Shown: one piece after another, positions 24,585-37,974 of the stretch
Position numbering within the stretch: the stretch's first letter is position 1
How the letters are laid out: each line of letters begins with the position of its first letter
Source: Chloroflexota bacterium
GTDB lineage: Bacteria > Chloroflexota > Anaerolineae > Aggregatilineales > J027
Length of the DNA: 64,000 bases
NCBI GenBank assembly: GCA_013112715.1
Contig: JABFGB010000006.1
Span: forward strand, 124,001-188,000
Reading direction: 5' to 3'
Program-made: the position numbers and the translations under genes
The notes under the pieces: generated by a model
Told to the model about the DNA's origin: nothing
Seen by the model: the letters and a program-made list of their open reading frames with translations, nothing else
The model's database searches: none

Positions 24585-24621
24585 GATTTAGACGAACCAA
24601 CAAGATCGAAAAATTTCTGTG

Positions 24622-27273
24622 ATGGACGAACCACTGCTCAATCCTGAAGAAGGTTTAGCGCCCCATAGTCAAGAGGCCGAAGAAGCACTACTAGGGGCGA
24701 TTCTTATTAATAATGATGCGCTGTTTGAAGTGGCGTCATTTTTGCGTGCCGATGACTTTTTCTTCCTGCGCAATCAATATGTGTGGGAAGCGATGATGCG
24801 ACTGCAAGAGCGCAATGAGGTGATTGACAGCCTGACGCTTATTGAAGAACTGCGTAATCAAGGCCGCCTTGATTCCATTGGCAGCGGTTCTTATATCACC
24901 TACCTCCTTAGCAATTCCGCCACCGCCATGAACGCGGAAATTTATGGTCGGATTGTGGAGCGCACTGCCACCCGCCGCCGTTTGTTGAAAGCATCGGTTG
25001 AGATTGCGCAGCTGGCAAAAAGCGAAGACATGGATGTGAATGAGGTCATCGAACGCGCCGAAGCCAACCTCTTTAGTGTCACCGAGCGCCGTTTGAAACG
25101 GGAAGTCACTATTATTCAGGATGTCCTAGCCGAATATTATGACCGCATCGAATATCTTTATCGCACCCGTGATAAACAATCGGGCGTGCCTACCGGATTC
25201 ATTGATCTTGACCGCTTGTTGGGTGGGTTGCAGAAAAGTGACCTGCTGATTGTGGCTGCGCGTCCCGGTATGGGCAAGACCAGCTTTGGCCTCAATATTG
25301 CCCGGAATGCGGCGCGGGCCGGTGGACGAGTGGCGGTGTTTAGCCTTGAAATGAGCAACGAACAGCTTGTCCAGCGATTTATTGCCAGCGAATCCGGCAT
25401 AGATAGCCAAAAACTGCGCCTCGGTGATCTGGATGACCGGGAATGGGGGCTTTTTACTCAATCGGCTGCCCGACTCAGCGAACTCCCCATCTTTTTGGAT
25501 GATACCGTCGCCATCACCCCTATCCAACTGCGAACCAAGTGCCGCCGCCTCAAGCGCGAATTTGACATTAACTTGGTGATTGTGGACTACCTGCAATTGA
25601 TGAATGGCAAACAGGGAGACCGCAATCAGAACCGCGAACAGGAAATCAGCTATATTTCGCAGTCCCTCAAAGAGTTGGCCCGCGAACTAAATCTACCCGT
25701 TTTGGCATTGGGTCAATTAAATCGTGCCGTTGAGCAGCGTGCTGACAAAAGACCACAGCTATCGGATTTACGCGAATCGGGATGTTTATCAGGGGATACC
25801 TTAATTTCGTTGGCAGATACCGGCGAAGTCCTACCAATTCGGGCCTTAGCCGGACGTGCAGGCTTCAATATTTGGGCGTTGAACCCAGATACTCTGAAAC
25901 TGGAAAAAGCATTGGTCAGTCGGGCTTTTTCAACAGGAGTAAAGCCTGTTTATCGTTTGACTACCCAACTGGGGCGGACGATCCACGCTACAGCCAACCA
26001 CAAATTCCTGACGATTCATGGTTGGCGGCGTTTGGATGAGCTTCAAGGAGGGGATTATCTTGCCCTGCCGCGAACGATGCCAAGTTCTGATTCCCAAACA
26101 ATGACCGACGCTGAACTGGCCTTACTTGGTCATTTAATTGGAGACGGGTGTATCTTGCCGGGACAATCTATCCATTACACAACCCGCGAAATAGACCTTG
26201 CCCAAAAAGTGGCAGACTTGGCCTTAGAAGTGTTTGGCAACAAGGTCAAGCCCCGTATTCAACAAGATCACACGTGGTATCAGGTGTATTTACCCACCAC
26301 CCTTAAACCCAGTCGTCGCACTCGTAGTCCTATAGTTGAATGGTTAGTGGAATTGGGAATTTGGGGGTTCCGTTCACATGAGAAATTCGTCCCAGCAAAG
26401 GTTTTCCAGCAACCTACTGAAGCTATTGCACTATTTCTGCGCCATTTATGGGCAACGGATGGTTGCATAAAACTTGTCGAAGGCAAAAGTATCCGACCTA
26501 TTGCCTATTACGCTTCGAGTAGCGAACGACTTGCCATAGATGTGCAGACACTACTGATTCGGAATTGTATTAACGCAAGGTTAAAGCGTATTCCACAAGG
26601 CAGTAAGGGGCGTGACCAGTATCATGTCATCGTTACTGGCAAACAGGATATGTCTATTTTTATTGATAGAATCGGGGCAGTAGGCCAATACAAAACCCAA
26701 TCCCTACAACAAATTTGGCAGCACTTAGATGCCCATATTGCCAATACCAATCGAGACATTATTCCATTTGATATATGGCGAATGTACGTTGTCCCTTCAA
26801 TGCAAGCCTCTGGAATGACCGTGCGACAAATGCAGAGTGCGATAGATATGGCCCATTGTGGGACAACCCTTTACAAACAAAATGTCAGCCGTGCGAGAGC
26901 TGCGCGTGTAGCGAATGTTGTCCAGTCAAAGCCGCTCGCTGCATTAGCCGAGAGCGATGTCTATTGGGATACCATTCAATCAATTGAATTGGATGGTGAG
27001 GAAGAAGTTTTTGATCTAACCGTACCCGGACTGCATAATTTCGTGGCGAATAACATCATCGTACACAACTCTATCGAGCAGAACAGTGACGTGGTGATGT
27101 TTATTTATCGGGATGATGTCTATAACGAAAATTCTGAAGCCCCGAATCAGGCTGAAATCATTGTGGCGAAACACCGCAATGGCCCAACCGGAATGATCTC
27201 GCTCTATTTTGATAAGCGACTCACCCAGTTCCGGGACTTGATGAAACAATCCATTGACTTGACTAATTACTAA
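24622..27273 (+). CDS. dnaB: Replicative DNA helicase DnaB containing an intein
   Basis: 883 residues as translated. The N-terminal primase-interacting domain (APHSQEAEEALLGAILINND) is followed by the RecA-like ATPase domain with Walker A in AARPGMGKTSFGLNIA and the Walker B region VIVDYLQLMNG. After RPQLSDLRESG the sequence is interrupted by a 429-residue intein (residues 388-816). The helicase resumes at SIEQNSDVVMFIYRDDVYNE and ends with the arginine-finger region and KHRNGPTG. Without the intein DnaB is 454 residues, the normal length, so the spliced protein should be complete. DnaB unwinds DNA at the replication fork as a hexamer. A GTG directly before the ATG could also start it. The DnaD-domain and dual-DnaC genes follow, giving a helicase-loading neighbourhood. 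Confidence 0.96.
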   Translation: MDEPLLNPEEGLAPHSQEAEEALLGAILINNDALFEVASFLRADDFFFLRNQYVWEAMMRLQERNEVIDSLTLIEELRNQGRLDSIGSGSYITYLLSNSATAMNAEIYGRIVERTATRRRLLKASVEIAQLAKSEDMDVNEVIERAEANLFSVTERRLKREVTIIQDVLAEYYDRIEYLYRTRDKQSGVPTGFIDLDRLLGGLQKSDLLIVAARPGMGKTSFGLNIARNAARAGGRVAVFSLEMSNEQLVQRFIASESGIDSQKLRLGDLDDREWGLFTQSAARLSELPIFLDDTVAITPIQLRTKCRRLKREFDINLVIVDYLQLMNGKQGDRNQNREQEISYISQSLKELARELNLPVLALGQLNRAVEQRADKRPQLSDLRESGCLSGDTLISLADTGEVLPIRALAGRAGFNIWALNPDTLKLEKALVSRAFSTGVKPVYRLTTQLGRTIHATANHKFLTIHGWRRLDELQGGDYLALPRTMPSSDSQTMTDAELALLGHLIGDGCILPGQSIHYTTREIDLAQKVADLALEVFGNKVKPRIQQDHTWYQVYLPTTLKPSRRTRSPIVEWLVELGIWGFRSHEKFVPAKVFQQPTEAIALFLRHLWATDGCIKLVEGKSIRPIAYYASSSERLAIDVQTLLIRNCINARLKRIPQGSKGRDQYHVIVTGKQDMSIFIDRIGAVGQYKTQSLQQIWQHLDAHIANTNRDIIPFDIWRMYVVPSMQASGMTVRQMQSAIDMAHCGTTLYKQNVSRARAARVANVVQSKPLAALAESDVYWDTIQSIELDGEEEVFDLTVPGLHNFVANNIIVHNSIEQNSDVVMFIYRDDVYNENSEAPNQAEIIVAKHRNGPTGMISLYFDKRLTQFRDLMKQSIDLTNY
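25783..27069 (+). mobile_element. Homing intein in DnaB (LAGLIDADG endonuclease type)
   Basis: The intein begins with Cys388 (CLSGDTLISLADTGEVLPI) and ends with FVANNIIVHN before Ser817, so the splice residues Cys1, the terminal His-Asn and Ser+1 are all present. Block B reads GRTIHATANHKFLTI. The centre holds a DOD endonuclease: block C LLGHLIGDGC (D508) and block E FLRHLWATDGC (D613), both with the catalytic Asp. Insertion is in the helicase motif at ESG|C...HN|SIEQ. From general knowledge this is the same site as the Synechocystis DnaB intein, and the N- and C-terminal blocks resemble it closely. It should be able to both splice and home. The central part looks more AT-rich than the flanking exteins. 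Confidence 0.95.
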
Positions 27274-34554: not shown

Positions 34555-35421
34555 TTGAATCCGATTGGTGTTTCAATTGTTCCCTATACCCCCACCCAAT
34601 ATCGGACGGTGTTGCAATTTTGTGCCCAACAATTTCGCACCCATCATCATCTGGATTGGCGTCAGATCAATGAATGGCTGCGGGACGAATATCACTATAC
34701 TGTGCTGGCCTATTGTCATAAAGAACTAATTGGAGTGTTATCGGTCTCCGCTCCTCACAACGGCACAACATGGTTACGCTTAGTATCGCTGCACGACCAA
34801 GCCCCCGAAAATGCGTTTAATGATCTGCTGCAAGCCGCTCTATCCCGCTGTACCCAATCTGGCATTCACGAAATCGCGGTTCTGGAAATGGAATTTTGGC
34901 TGCAAGTTCTCTTGGAGAAAAGCGGCTTTAGTGCGCTTGACCAGATTGTTCATCTGATTCGAGAGGCTGCCCCGATTGAGTATGAGCCGCCCCGCGATTT
35001 CAAAATTCGTTTGGTACACGGTCATGATTTGCGGATTATTGAAGCCATTGACCATGCAGCTTTTCCCTCGTTGTGGCACATGAGCCTGACCGATTTAGAA
35101 GGATCCAGCCATTATGCCATCAGTTTTACGATGGCGGTGATGGAAAAACATGCCGTCGGTTATCAACTTTCAACTTCCTATTCGGATGGCATTCATCTGG
35201 CACGATTGGCGACATGGCCCTCAGCGCAAAAACGTGGCATTGGTCGAGCGCTGGTGGAGCGCCTCATCGCGCAATTCCCACATCGAGCCATTACCGTCAA
35301 CACGCAATCCAGCAATGTAGCAGCGCGGCGGATTTATGAAAGTCTCGGTTTTGTTACCCAAAAAATGCCCACGCCCGTCTGGCATCTTTCACTCCCGACG
35401 CCAGTAGCCGATTTTGATTAA
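34555..35421 (+). CDS. GNAT-family acetyltransferase, two-domain length
   Basis: 288 residues. The C-terminal half carries a clear GNAT motif A: HLARLATWPSAQKRGIGRAL with the R/Q-x-x-G-x-G/A acetyl-CoA loop, then TVNTQSSNVAARRIYESLGF (motif B). The N-terminal half (about 1-140) also looks like a GNAT-type fold (FRTHHHLDWRQINEWLRDEY, LIGVLSVS) but lacks a clear acetyl-CoA loop, as in tandem GNAT proteins. Substrate unknown. The likely start is TTG at 34555, with AAGGTC nine bases upstream; no ATG or GTG in frame lies close to the fold. Followed after 28 bases by the KARI-like gene. Confidence 0.75.
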   Translation: MNPIGVSIVPYTPTQYRTVLQFCAQQFRTHHHLDWRQINEWLRDEYHYTVLAYCHKELIGVLSVSAPHNGTTWLRLVSLHDQAPENAFNDLLQAALSRCTQSGIHEIAVLEMEFWLQVLLEKSGFSALDQIVHLIREAAPIEYEPPRDFKIRLVHGHDLRIIEAIDHAAFPSLWHMSLTDLEGSSHYAISFTMAVMEKHAVGYQLSTSYSDGIHLARLATWPSAQKRGIGRALVERLIAQFPHRAITVNTQSSNVAARRIYESLGFVTQKMPTPVWHLSLPTPVADFD

Positions 35422-35449: not shown

Positions 35450-36448
35450 ATGACGACCCTCTACTATGAAAAAGATGCCGATTTGCGTAATCTGCGCCAG
35501 CGGCAGATCACGGTGATTGGCTATGGCAATCTGGGTCGCTCGGTGGCCCTGAATTTGCGTGACAGTGGCTATGATCTCATTGTGGGTAACCGTGAGGACG
35601 ATTTTGCCCGCCTTGCCCGCAATGATGGATTTATCGTCACACCGATTATCCAAGCAGCGCAGGGGTCGGATACCATTTTTCTGATGATTCCTGATGAAAT
35701 CATGCCGCAGGTGTATTTGGAGCATATCGCACCGAATTTACGCACTGGCGACATGCTGATTTTTGCGTCGGGCTATAACGTCGCCTTTGGCTACATCGAA
35801 CCGCCGAATCATGTGGATGCTGGTTTGATTGCGCCTCGCACGCTTGGCATTGGGGTACGCGATGGTTATTTGAATGGGTTGGGGTATCCCTGCTATGTTT
35901 CGGTTGCGCAAGATGGATCGGGTCGGGCGTGGGAGTATTTGTTGGCTTTGGCTGCCGCGATTGGGGCGTTGCGACAGGGTGCGATTGAGGTGTCGTTTAA
36001 TCAGGAAGTCGAAATTGATTTGTTTGTCCATCAGGCCGTCTTATCGGCGATTCACAGCACACTGCTGGCCGCCGCCGATGTTCTCATCCGCGAAGGCTAT
36101 CCTCCCGAAGTGGCGCTGACCGAACTCTATCTATCTGGTGAATTGGGCATGTTATTTTCGCGGGCAGGCATTACAGGCCTAACCAATGCGTTGCATATGT
36201 TTTCACCCGCTGGACAATATGGCATCATGTCCCGTACAGAGCGCTTCCAAGAGGTCAAAATGCAGCGTCAATTGGAATCTATCCTCGACAACATCCGACA
36301 GGGGAATTTTGCCCAAGAATGGGTTTCGGAATCGGCAGATGGTTATCCCCGCCTAAAAGCCCTACAGCGACGTTTTCAATCGAGTGCCTTGTGGCGTTTT
36401 GAACGCGAGGTGCTGGATATGTTGCGCGGTCTGCCACCTGACGCTTAA
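35450..36448 (+). CDS. Ketol-acid reductoisomerase homologue lacking catalytic residues
   Basis: 332 residues, the length and layout of class I KARI (IlvC). The Rossmann domain has TVIGYGNLGRSVALNLRDSG and MIPDE; the helical domain is recognisable (EVEIDLFVHQAVLS, YPPEVALTELYLSGELG). The KARI reaction makes dihydroxy acids in branched-chain amino acid synthesis and needs H107, K130, D190 and E194. Here these positions read Ser107 (FASGYN), Arg130 (APRTLG), Asp190 and His194 (DLFVHQ in place of DLFGEQ). The residue numbers fall out of the sequence without gaps. Metal binding and isomerase activity are thus unlikely in the classical form. It may act as a plain NAD(P)-dependent dehydrogenase or have another substrate. 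It lies between a GNAT gene and the cobalamin-binding gene, not among ilv genes. Confidence 0.8.
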   Translation: MTTLYYEKDADLRNLRQRQITVIGYGNLGRSVALNLRDSGYDLIVGNREDDFARLARNDGFIVTPIIQAAQGSDTIFLMIPDEIMPQVYLEHIAPNLRTGDMLIFASGYNVAFGYIEPPNHVDAGLIAPRTLGIGVRDGYLNGLGYPCYVSVAQDGSGRAWEYLLALAAAIGALRQGAIEVSFNQEVEIDLFVHQAVLSAIHSTLLAAADVLIREGYPPEVALTELYLSGELGMLFSRAGITGLTNALHMFSPAGQYGIMSRTERFQEVKMQRQLESILDNIRQGNFAQEWVSESADGYPRLKALQRRFQSSALWRFEREVLDMLRGLPPDA

Positions 36449-36538: not shown

Positions 36539-36937
36539 ATGGAAAATCGCAAAATCCGCGTACTGATTGCCAAACCCGGCCTTGATGGGCATGACCGGGG
36601 CGCCAAAGTGATTGCCCGCAGTCTGCGCGATGCCGGGATGGAAGTCATCTATACGGGTTTGCGCCAAACCCCCGAAATGATTGTGGAAGCGGCGCTGCAA
36701 GAGGATGTGGATGTCATCGGCATGTCTATTCTATCTGGCGCACATATGGCGTTGACCCCGCGTGTGATTGAGCTAATGCACGAAAGCGGGCTGGACGATG
36801 TAAAGGTTATTATTGGCGGCATTATCCCCGATGAAGACGTTCCGGCGCTCAAGTCAATGGGGGTGAGTGAGGTTTTTGGCCCCGGCACCAACACCGATGA
36901 CATTGTAAAACATATCCGCACGGTTGTTTCTGTCTGA
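36539..36937 (+). CDS. Cobalamin-binding subunit of methylmalonyl-CoA mutase type
   Basis: 132 residues forming a stand-alone B12-binding Rossmann domain: [20 protein letters not shown] contains the DxHxxG motif whose His coordinates cobalt, followed by [11 protein letters not shown] and [20 protein letters not shown], ending in FGPGT. Such small subunits work with a separate large catalytic subunit (McmA1 type) in acyl-CoA mutases. No large subunit gene is in the window. The MeaB chaperone gene follows after 14 bases. Confidence 0.9.
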
Positions 36938-36951
36938 TAGAAGGATTGCCT

Positions 36952-37974
36952 GTGTTAAAAACGTTTCCGGAAACACTCGTCAGCCAATTGCTGGCGGGTA
37001 ACCGTCGTGCTTTGGCCCGCACCATTACTGCCGTTGAGAATGAAGCTCCTGAGTCGGTTGAAATCCTAAAAACACTTTATCCCTATACGGGCCGTGCCTA
37101 TACCATCGGGATTACCGGCGCACCGGGTACAGGCAAAAGTTGCCTTGTAACCGCCCTGACTCAACATCTCCGCAAGCAGAACAAAACCGTCGGCATTATC
37201 GCGGTTGACCCCACTAGCCCATTTACGGGCGGCGCGGTTTTAGGGGATCGTTTTCGGATGCGTGACCTTTCTGGCGACAGCGGGGTTTTTATCCGCAGTA
37301 TGGCGAGTCGTGGACATTTGGGCGGCTTGGCGCGTACCACCTATGATGTCATGCGGGTGATGGATGCTGCTGGTTTCGACATTATCATTATCGAAACGGT
37401 GGGGGCAGGCCAAAATGAGGTTGAAATCGTGAAGGCCGCCGATACTACCATTGTGGTTGAAGCCCCCGGCCTCGGTGATGATATTCAAGCGATCAAAGCC
37501 GGGATTTTGGAAATTGCCGATATTTTGGTGGTCAATAAAGCCGATAGTCCGTTGGTACAAAACACGGTTCGTGCTCTCAAGGCCATGCTCGATCTAGGGC
37601 ATCGTCAGCGCTTGGTTGCCCATCACGGCCAGTTAATGGCCCAAACTGACAGCACGGGCGCGCCGGAATATGATTTCCGCGAAGTGCCTATTATCCAAAC
37701 GGTAGCGATTAATGGGCAGGGCATCTCCACATTGGTCGAAGCGATTGATGCACACCGTTCCTATCTGGCTGAGAATGGGATTCGGCAAGATCGCCAGCGG
37801 GCGCGTTTACAAGGCGAGTTGATTGCGCGGCTTAAAGAAACCCTACTGAAAAACCTGTTGGATACCGTTCCCGATGAGACATTCGATCAACTGATTGAGA
37901 GCTTGCTGGCGCGACAAATTGATCCAGTGAGTGCTGTCCAGTCCTTGCTCAATCCCCAAAGGCCATTGTCATGA
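36952..37974 (+). CDS. meaB: MeaB/ArgK-type GTPase, methylmalonyl-CoA mutase chaperone
   Basis: 340 residues. P-loop GTPase of the G3E group: IGITGAPGTGKSCLVTALTQ (Walker A), VDPTSPFTGGAVLGDRFRMR, then IIETVGAGQNEVEIVKAADT, and NKAD as base-specificity motif. MeaB loads and protects the adenosylcobalamin cofactor of mutases. The start is GTG at 36952, six bases after AAGGA; a TTG at 36946 is too close to it. It follows the B12-binding subunit and overlaps the next gene by four bases (ATGA), indicating one operon. Confidence 0.93.
   Translation: MLKTFPETLVSQLLAGNRRALARTITAVENEAPESVEILKTLYPYTGRAYTIGITGAPGTGKSCLVTALTQHLRKQNKTVGIIAVDPTSPFTGGAVLGDRFRMRDLSGDSGVFIRSMASRGHLGGLARTTYDVMRVMDAAGFDIIIIETVGAGQNEVEIVKAADTTIVVEAPGLGDDIQAIKAGILEIADILVVNKADSPLVQNTVRALKAMLDLGHRQRLVAHHGQLMAQTDSTGAPEYDFREVPIIQTVAINGQGISTLVEAIDAHRSYLAENGIRQDRQRARLQGELIARLKETLLKNLLDTVPDETFDQLIESLLARQIDPVSAVQSLLNPQRPLS

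Follow-up and report, generated by a model that had tools for sequence, protein, structure and literature searches.

The window examined here, a stretch of 64,000 nucleotides from contig JABFGB010000006.1 of a Chloroflexota bacterium, contains at positions 35450..36448 an open reading frame (ORF) with an ATG start that encodes a protein of 332 amino acids (all window features given with two-dot coordinates lie on the forward strand). Profile matches and its position in the tree identify the product as a ketol-acid reductoisomerase (KARI)-like protein of the IlvC2 type (our label for a KARI side branch that includes Sso-KARI), belonging to a clade that lacks Glu194. It is a genuine full-length class I KARI homologue, covered over its entire length by the Pfam domains KARI_N (1.3e-49) and KARI_C (2e-24). 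The AF2 model (pLDDT of 94.6) has the KARI fold and matches solved KARIs with Z scores of 37 to 38 and a TM score of about 0.9, in agreement with the initial annotation, according to which the fold is kept. None of the curated ilvC equivalog cut-offs is reached; the protein is about 2 bits short for TIGR00465 (223.8 versus 226.15) and well under for PRK05479 (265.1 versus 336) and PRK13403 (210.1 versus 406).

Directly upstream lies a gene for a GNAT acetyltransferase (34555..35421), a frequent neighbor and not an obligate partner: the GNAT gene is missing from family f4, which has the KARI paralogue, and present in families f3 and f5, which do not (P = 0.22), and a functional GNAT-KARI pair was therefore rejected. 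Downstream are genes for a B12-binding small subunit of the methylmalonyl-CoA mutase type (36539..36937) and a MeaB GTPase (36946..37974), whose proximity had been taken to hint at another metabolic role. Among the relatives, this pair is found beside the paralogue only in the same genus and in one further genome (G009), and the genome encodes its two large mutase subunits on other contigs; we dropped the cobalamin link, since these neighbors typify a genus and one relative and not the clade. The commonest neighbors of the paralogue throughout the order are the GNAT gene, dnaB, a dnaD-like gene, and a gene for a dnaC-like ATPase, and no clue to a substrate or pathway was found among the neighboring genes. 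Within the window, the replicative helicase DnaB (positions 24619-27273) is interrupted by an intein that contains a LAGLIDADG domain (residues 396 to 817 match Intein_splicing), and the product of positions 27977-29392 matches the DnaC/IstB-like ATPase profile twice, as if two loader-type ATPase domains had been fused.

Active-site residues of the KARI homologue

The GxGxxG nucleotide-binding loop (residues 24 to 30, GYGNLGR; 35519..35539) is intact, as initially annotated, with Gly24, Gly26, and Gly29 all present. Four further assignments of the initial annotation hold at the level of both the codons and an alignment to the canonical IlvC of the same genome, in which H108, K131, D191, and E195 align with residues 107, 130, 190, and 194 of the window protein: Ser107 (TCG, 35768..35770) stands in place of the His of canonical KARIs, Arg130 (CGC, 35837..35839) in place of Lys, Asp190 (GAT, 36017..36019), the metal-bridging ligand, is retained, and His194 (CAT, 36029..36031) replaces the Glu ligand of Mg(I).

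Class I KARIs have four metal ligands. In Sac-KARI, D191 and E195 hold Mg(I), and D191, E227, and E231 hold Mg(II) (PMC5940873). E227 and E231 of the genome's own canonical IlvC align with Glu225 (36122..36124; equivalent to class I E226) and Glu231 (36140..36142; equivalent to class I E230) of the window protein, with an insertion of two residues between them; in the AF2 model, one helix (residues 219 to 228) stops and the next (residues 231 to 242) starts at this insertion. By alignment, the Mg(II) set of Asp190, Glu225, and Glu231 is thus complete, and the Mg(I) ligand Glu194 is absent. The initial annotation had counted three of four key catalytic residues as lost. The replacements themselves stand; the count was selective because it omitted Glu225 and Glu231, and with both of these present besides Asp190, only one of the four metal ligands is lost.

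In the β2-αB coenzyme-specificity loop (residues 45 to 52; 35582..35605), the counterpart of Asp50 in the canonical IlvC of this genome is Ser51. Acidic residues in this loop have served to predict a preference for NADH (PMC5940873, citing Brinkmann-Chen). Since Asp50 occupies the position of the Ser of the canonical phosphate-binding loop, the alignment suggests NADH as the coenzyme of the window protein.

Paralogy, selection, and phylogenetic distribution

The genome contains a separate, canonical ilvC gene, whose existence the initial annotation had proposed to check; its product scores 558.6 bits against a cut-off of 336, and the gene lies on another contig in the block ilvE-ilvB-(190-amino-acid ORF)-ilvC-leuA-leuC. 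The paralogue was found in 45 of 61 relatives, mostly alongside the canonical copy, and its reading frame is open in nearly all of them. Among five genomes of the same genus, dN/dS values were 0.01 to 0.045 for the paralogue and 0.015 to 0.041 for canonical ilvC; purifying selection acts on the paralogue as strongly as on the canonical gene. In the relative G008 (L051, 855-1844), the orthologue is broken into two frames, by either a frameshift or an assembly error.

When species genomes were searched with the alignment of the clade, 80 loci were obtained. Those outside the Anaerolineae clade belong to Asgard archaea, Acidobacteriota, Planctomycetota, Myxococcota, haloarchaea, Actinomycetota, and others; together with Sso-KARI, they make up the set of 41 IlvC2-type sequences compared here. 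In a quick tree with SH-aLRT as the only support measure, a long branch (0.8 changes per site; SH-aLRT, 100) separates canonical IlvC from the IlvC2-type sequences, and the window protein falls among the latter. Arg130 and Asp50 are present in all 41 sequences, and position 107 is Ser in 32 and His in 8. Their metal ligands are nearly invariant (Asp190, 40/41; Glu194, 41/41; Glu225, 41/41; Glu231, 40/41), and 39 of the sequences have all four. His107 and Glu194 were each found in five of five canonical KARI sequences. Of the marks of the IlvC2 type, the window protein carries Arg130, Ser107, Asp50, and the two-residue insertion before Glu231, and it has His where the branch has Glu194. Judged from this distribution, Ser107 and Arg130 were inherited from an old and widely spread branch. 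Sso-KARI, which shares both, has been solved in structures that contain Mg2+, CPD (a KARI inhibitor), and either NADH or NADPH, and these two replacements alone therefore do not exclude KARI chemistry. For PDB entries 6JCV (Sso-KARI) and 8EP7, the sequences that entered our comparison were stretches.

The sequences lacking Glu194 form one clade (52 tree rows; SH-aLRT, 98), so that a replaced residue does characterize a separate clade, as the initial annotation had asked. Among the 67 clade sequences, Gln is the commonest residue at position 194 (53 sequences), followed by His (11), Asp (2), and Glu (1), and since the flanking Gln195 and Phe192 are present in all 67, the alignment at this position is not in doubt. 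The one exception, L032, has Ser225 besides Glu194 and may represent a reversion or an independent retention. Ser107 is found in 62 of the 67 sequences, and position 130 is Arg in 52, Gln in 12, and Lys in 3. Asp190 is kept in 57 and Glu231 in 62, position 225 is Glu in 28, Asp in 26, and Ser in 11, all three GxGxxG glycines are present in 60, and many other positions are conserved. A sample of 301 genomes across the phylum gave strong matches (E values up to 1e-72) only in the same order (the source genome and G010), together with two weaker matches outside it with 41 to 44% identity, and the clade therefore appears so far, as sampled, to be restricted to one order of Anaerolineae; the Aggregatilineales sequence L112 also falls within it. 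By these comparisons, the novelty is the loss of Glu194 inside one clade, Ser107 and Arg130 being older. Because it is confined to one clade and the gene is under strong purifying selection within the genus, the loss is attributable neither to chance nor to decay.

Two other departures from the usual ligand set were observed. In genus g17 of family f8 (L039, L040, L041, L042, and L043), Arg replaces the bridging Asp190, and part of the genus also lacks one of the GxGxxG glycines, making these proteins candidates for true catalytic loss within the clade. A divergent KARI homologue in genome G052 (L048, 4417-5385, reverse strand) has Asn for Lys130, keeps Asp190 and Glu194, and apparently lacks both Mg(II) Glu residues, a loss opposite to that of the window protein.

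Outside the clade, IlvC2-type genes have as neighbors genes for sugar isomerase-like, short-chain dehydrogenase/reductase (SDR), LarA-type racemase, amidohydrolase, cysteine synthase-like, and sulfatase proteins, and neither ilvB nor ilvD was among the twenty neighbor proteins scanned. We looked for ilvD and acetolactate synthase in six genomes. Three archaeal genomes (G361, G364, and G367) whose only KARI homologues are of the IlvC2 type (two in G367) gave no ilvD match, and their acetolactate synthase matches were all below the cut-off; neither gene was found in a Tissierellia metagenome-assembled genome (MAG; G368), and ilvD was present in the Lokiarchaeota genome G365. These absences hint that the IlvC2 type may act outside branched-chain synthesis, and they are suggestive only, because the MAGs may be incomplete.

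Possible function

We lean toward a functional KARI paralogue that is not a branched-chain enzyme and would act as an NAD(P)H-dependent, one-metal oxidoreductase of the 2-oxoacid type without alkyl migration, a proposal whose chances of being right or wrong we regard as balanced. Its ancestor would have belonged to the ancient IlvC2-type branch, in which Arg130 was already present, residue 107 was mostly Ser, and the region of the metal-binding helix was two residues longer, and the Mg(I) ligand Glu194 would then have been lost in one order of Anaerolineae. The dimeric KARI fold would bind NAD(P)H and hold one divalent metal ion, at site II, between Asp190 and the Glu225 and Glu231 of the partner subunit, and a 2-oxo or 2-hydroxy-3-oxo acid would be reduced or the matching hydroxy acid oxidized, whereas alkyl migration, for which both metals and the catalytic Glu are required, would no longer take place. 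The fold, the residues, the clade, the paralogy, and the purifying selection are observations; the use of metal site II, the coenzyme preference, the loss of isomerization, and the role as a reductase we infer.

Position 194 is one that we take to be equivalent to E319 of spinach KARI. E319 has been described as catalytic, with a part in the mechanism of methyl migration or transfer (PMC11264209), and KARIs reduce several other substrates in the reductase step alone, without isomerization (PMC4353338). Ketol-acid isomerization by the window protein is thus unlikely, as initially annotated, because Glu194 is lost; that loss is the sole basis for the statement, as Ser107 and Arg130, which had been cited with it, both occur in Sso-KARI. 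Structures of an E195S mutant of the Streptococcus pneumoniae KARI exist, as seen from PDB titles among the structure matches, and a literature text search found no KARI paper with this mutant.

Against a one-metal enzyme stand the variability of Glu225, the chance that His or Gln at position 194 still holds a metal together with water, and the members of the clade, in g17 and elsewhere, that also lack Asp190, Glu231, or a GxGxxG glycine, losses that would fit relaxed catalysis. The same losses (Asp190 in 10, Glu231 in 5, and the glycine motif in 7 of 67), beside many conserved positions, would be in keeping with a non-catalytic homologue, either an NAD(P)-binding pseudoenzyme or a regulatory or structural subunit in the oligomer of canonical IlvC. 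We consider this unlikely, though worth serious thought: the window protein itself has the GxGxxG motif and every Mg(II) ligand, Asp190, an acidic residue at 225, and Glu231 occur together in 44 of the 67 members, and there is no physical or genomic link to canonical ilvC, the two genes lying on separate contigs. That the gene is a decaying ilvC duplicate is hardly credible; a lost metal ligand and the split copy in G008 are what it can draw on, and it is refuted by the selection signal (dN/dS of 0.01 to 0.045); reading frames that stay open in nearly all relatives and the persistence of one clade across the order also speak against it.

A working ketol-acid isomeroreductase, kept as an isozyme for special conditions, would have its Mg(I) site completed by His194 or Gln194 or by water. 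It would agree with the TIGR00465 score just 2 bits below the cut-off, with three of four metal ligands retained, and with Sso-KARI, whose Ser107 and Arg130 accompany bound Mg2+, NAD(P)H, and CPD. We nevertheless think it improbable, given a Glu194 that is universal in the other IlvC2-type and the canonical sequences yet kept by one of 67 clade members, the catalytic role assigned to the spinach residue, and a canonical ilvC already present in its operon. New chemistry on the KARI fold has a precedent in BurG, a KARI homologue recruited in specialized metabolism for ring closure by a concealed redox reaction (PMC9359912); BurG structures rank with the best fold matches (Z score of 38.7, tied with ordinary KARIs), and the varied catabolic or specialized genes beside IlvC2-type genes elsewhere would suit it. 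It too seems a poor prospect for the window protein, as the two-Mg2+ cluster of BurG seems to be absent in the Anaerolineae clade, and the conserved order-wide neighbors are replication genes and not a biosynthetic cluster.

KARI serves as a model of alkyl migration with two metals and is a target for herbicides, antibiotics, and biofuels. If the one-metal proposal is true, a natural and strongly selected lineage without just the Mg(I) Glu would offer a ready test that separates the metal of migration from that of hydride transfer. More broadly, and somewhat more tentatively, there may be an order-wide clade with the KARI fold that uses one metal (or, in some members, none) in an undescribed NAD(P)H-linked reaction, together with an ancient IlvC2 type that acts outside branched-chain synthesis though annotated as KARI. 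It may be that many KARI-annotated genes in Chloroflexota, Asgard archaea, and Acidobacteriota do not make branched-chain amino acids.

Comparison with known reductases

Some KARIs can also reduce the substrates of ketopantoate reductase (PanE) and pyrroline-5-carboxylate reductase (ProC), which belong to the wider superfamily but form families separate from KARI. We rejected the window protein as a substitute for either: PanE has a strong match in the genome that encodes it, the presence of PanE in the 61 relatives does not depend on that of the paralogue (16/45 versus 8/16; P = 0.38), and ProC is found in 54 of the 61, including the source genome.

With canonical class I KARIs, the window protein shares the fold, the domain order, Asp190, the equivalents of E226 and E230, and the GxGxxG motif, and it differs in the H107S, K130R, and E194H replacements, in the coenzyme loop, and in its location outside the ilv operon; identity to the IlvC of its own genome is 37%. 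BurG, from malleicyprol biosynthesis (PDB entry 7PCC and others), resembles it as a protein with the KARI fold in a separate clade, encoded by a paralogue beside a normal ilvC, and in the use of NAD, which is predicted for the window protein. BurG has two Mg2+ and belongs to a specialized gene cluster (PMC9359912), whereas the window protein has lost the Mg(I) ligand and has GNAT, B12-binding, MeaB, and replication genes around it, as far as its adjacent genes show.

Among branches with solved structures, the nearest is that of Sso-KARI of Sulfolobus solfataricus ("putative KARI 2"; PDB entry 6JCV and others), with 38 to 39% identity over the full length. Chen and colleagues are said to have found in 2019 that it has KARI activity, which is lost above about pH 8. 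It shares Ser107, Arg130, the Asp of the coenzyme loop, and an identical two-residue insertion before the last Glu with the window protein, but it retains the Mg(I) ligand Glu194, and the tree places it outside the Anaerolineae clade.
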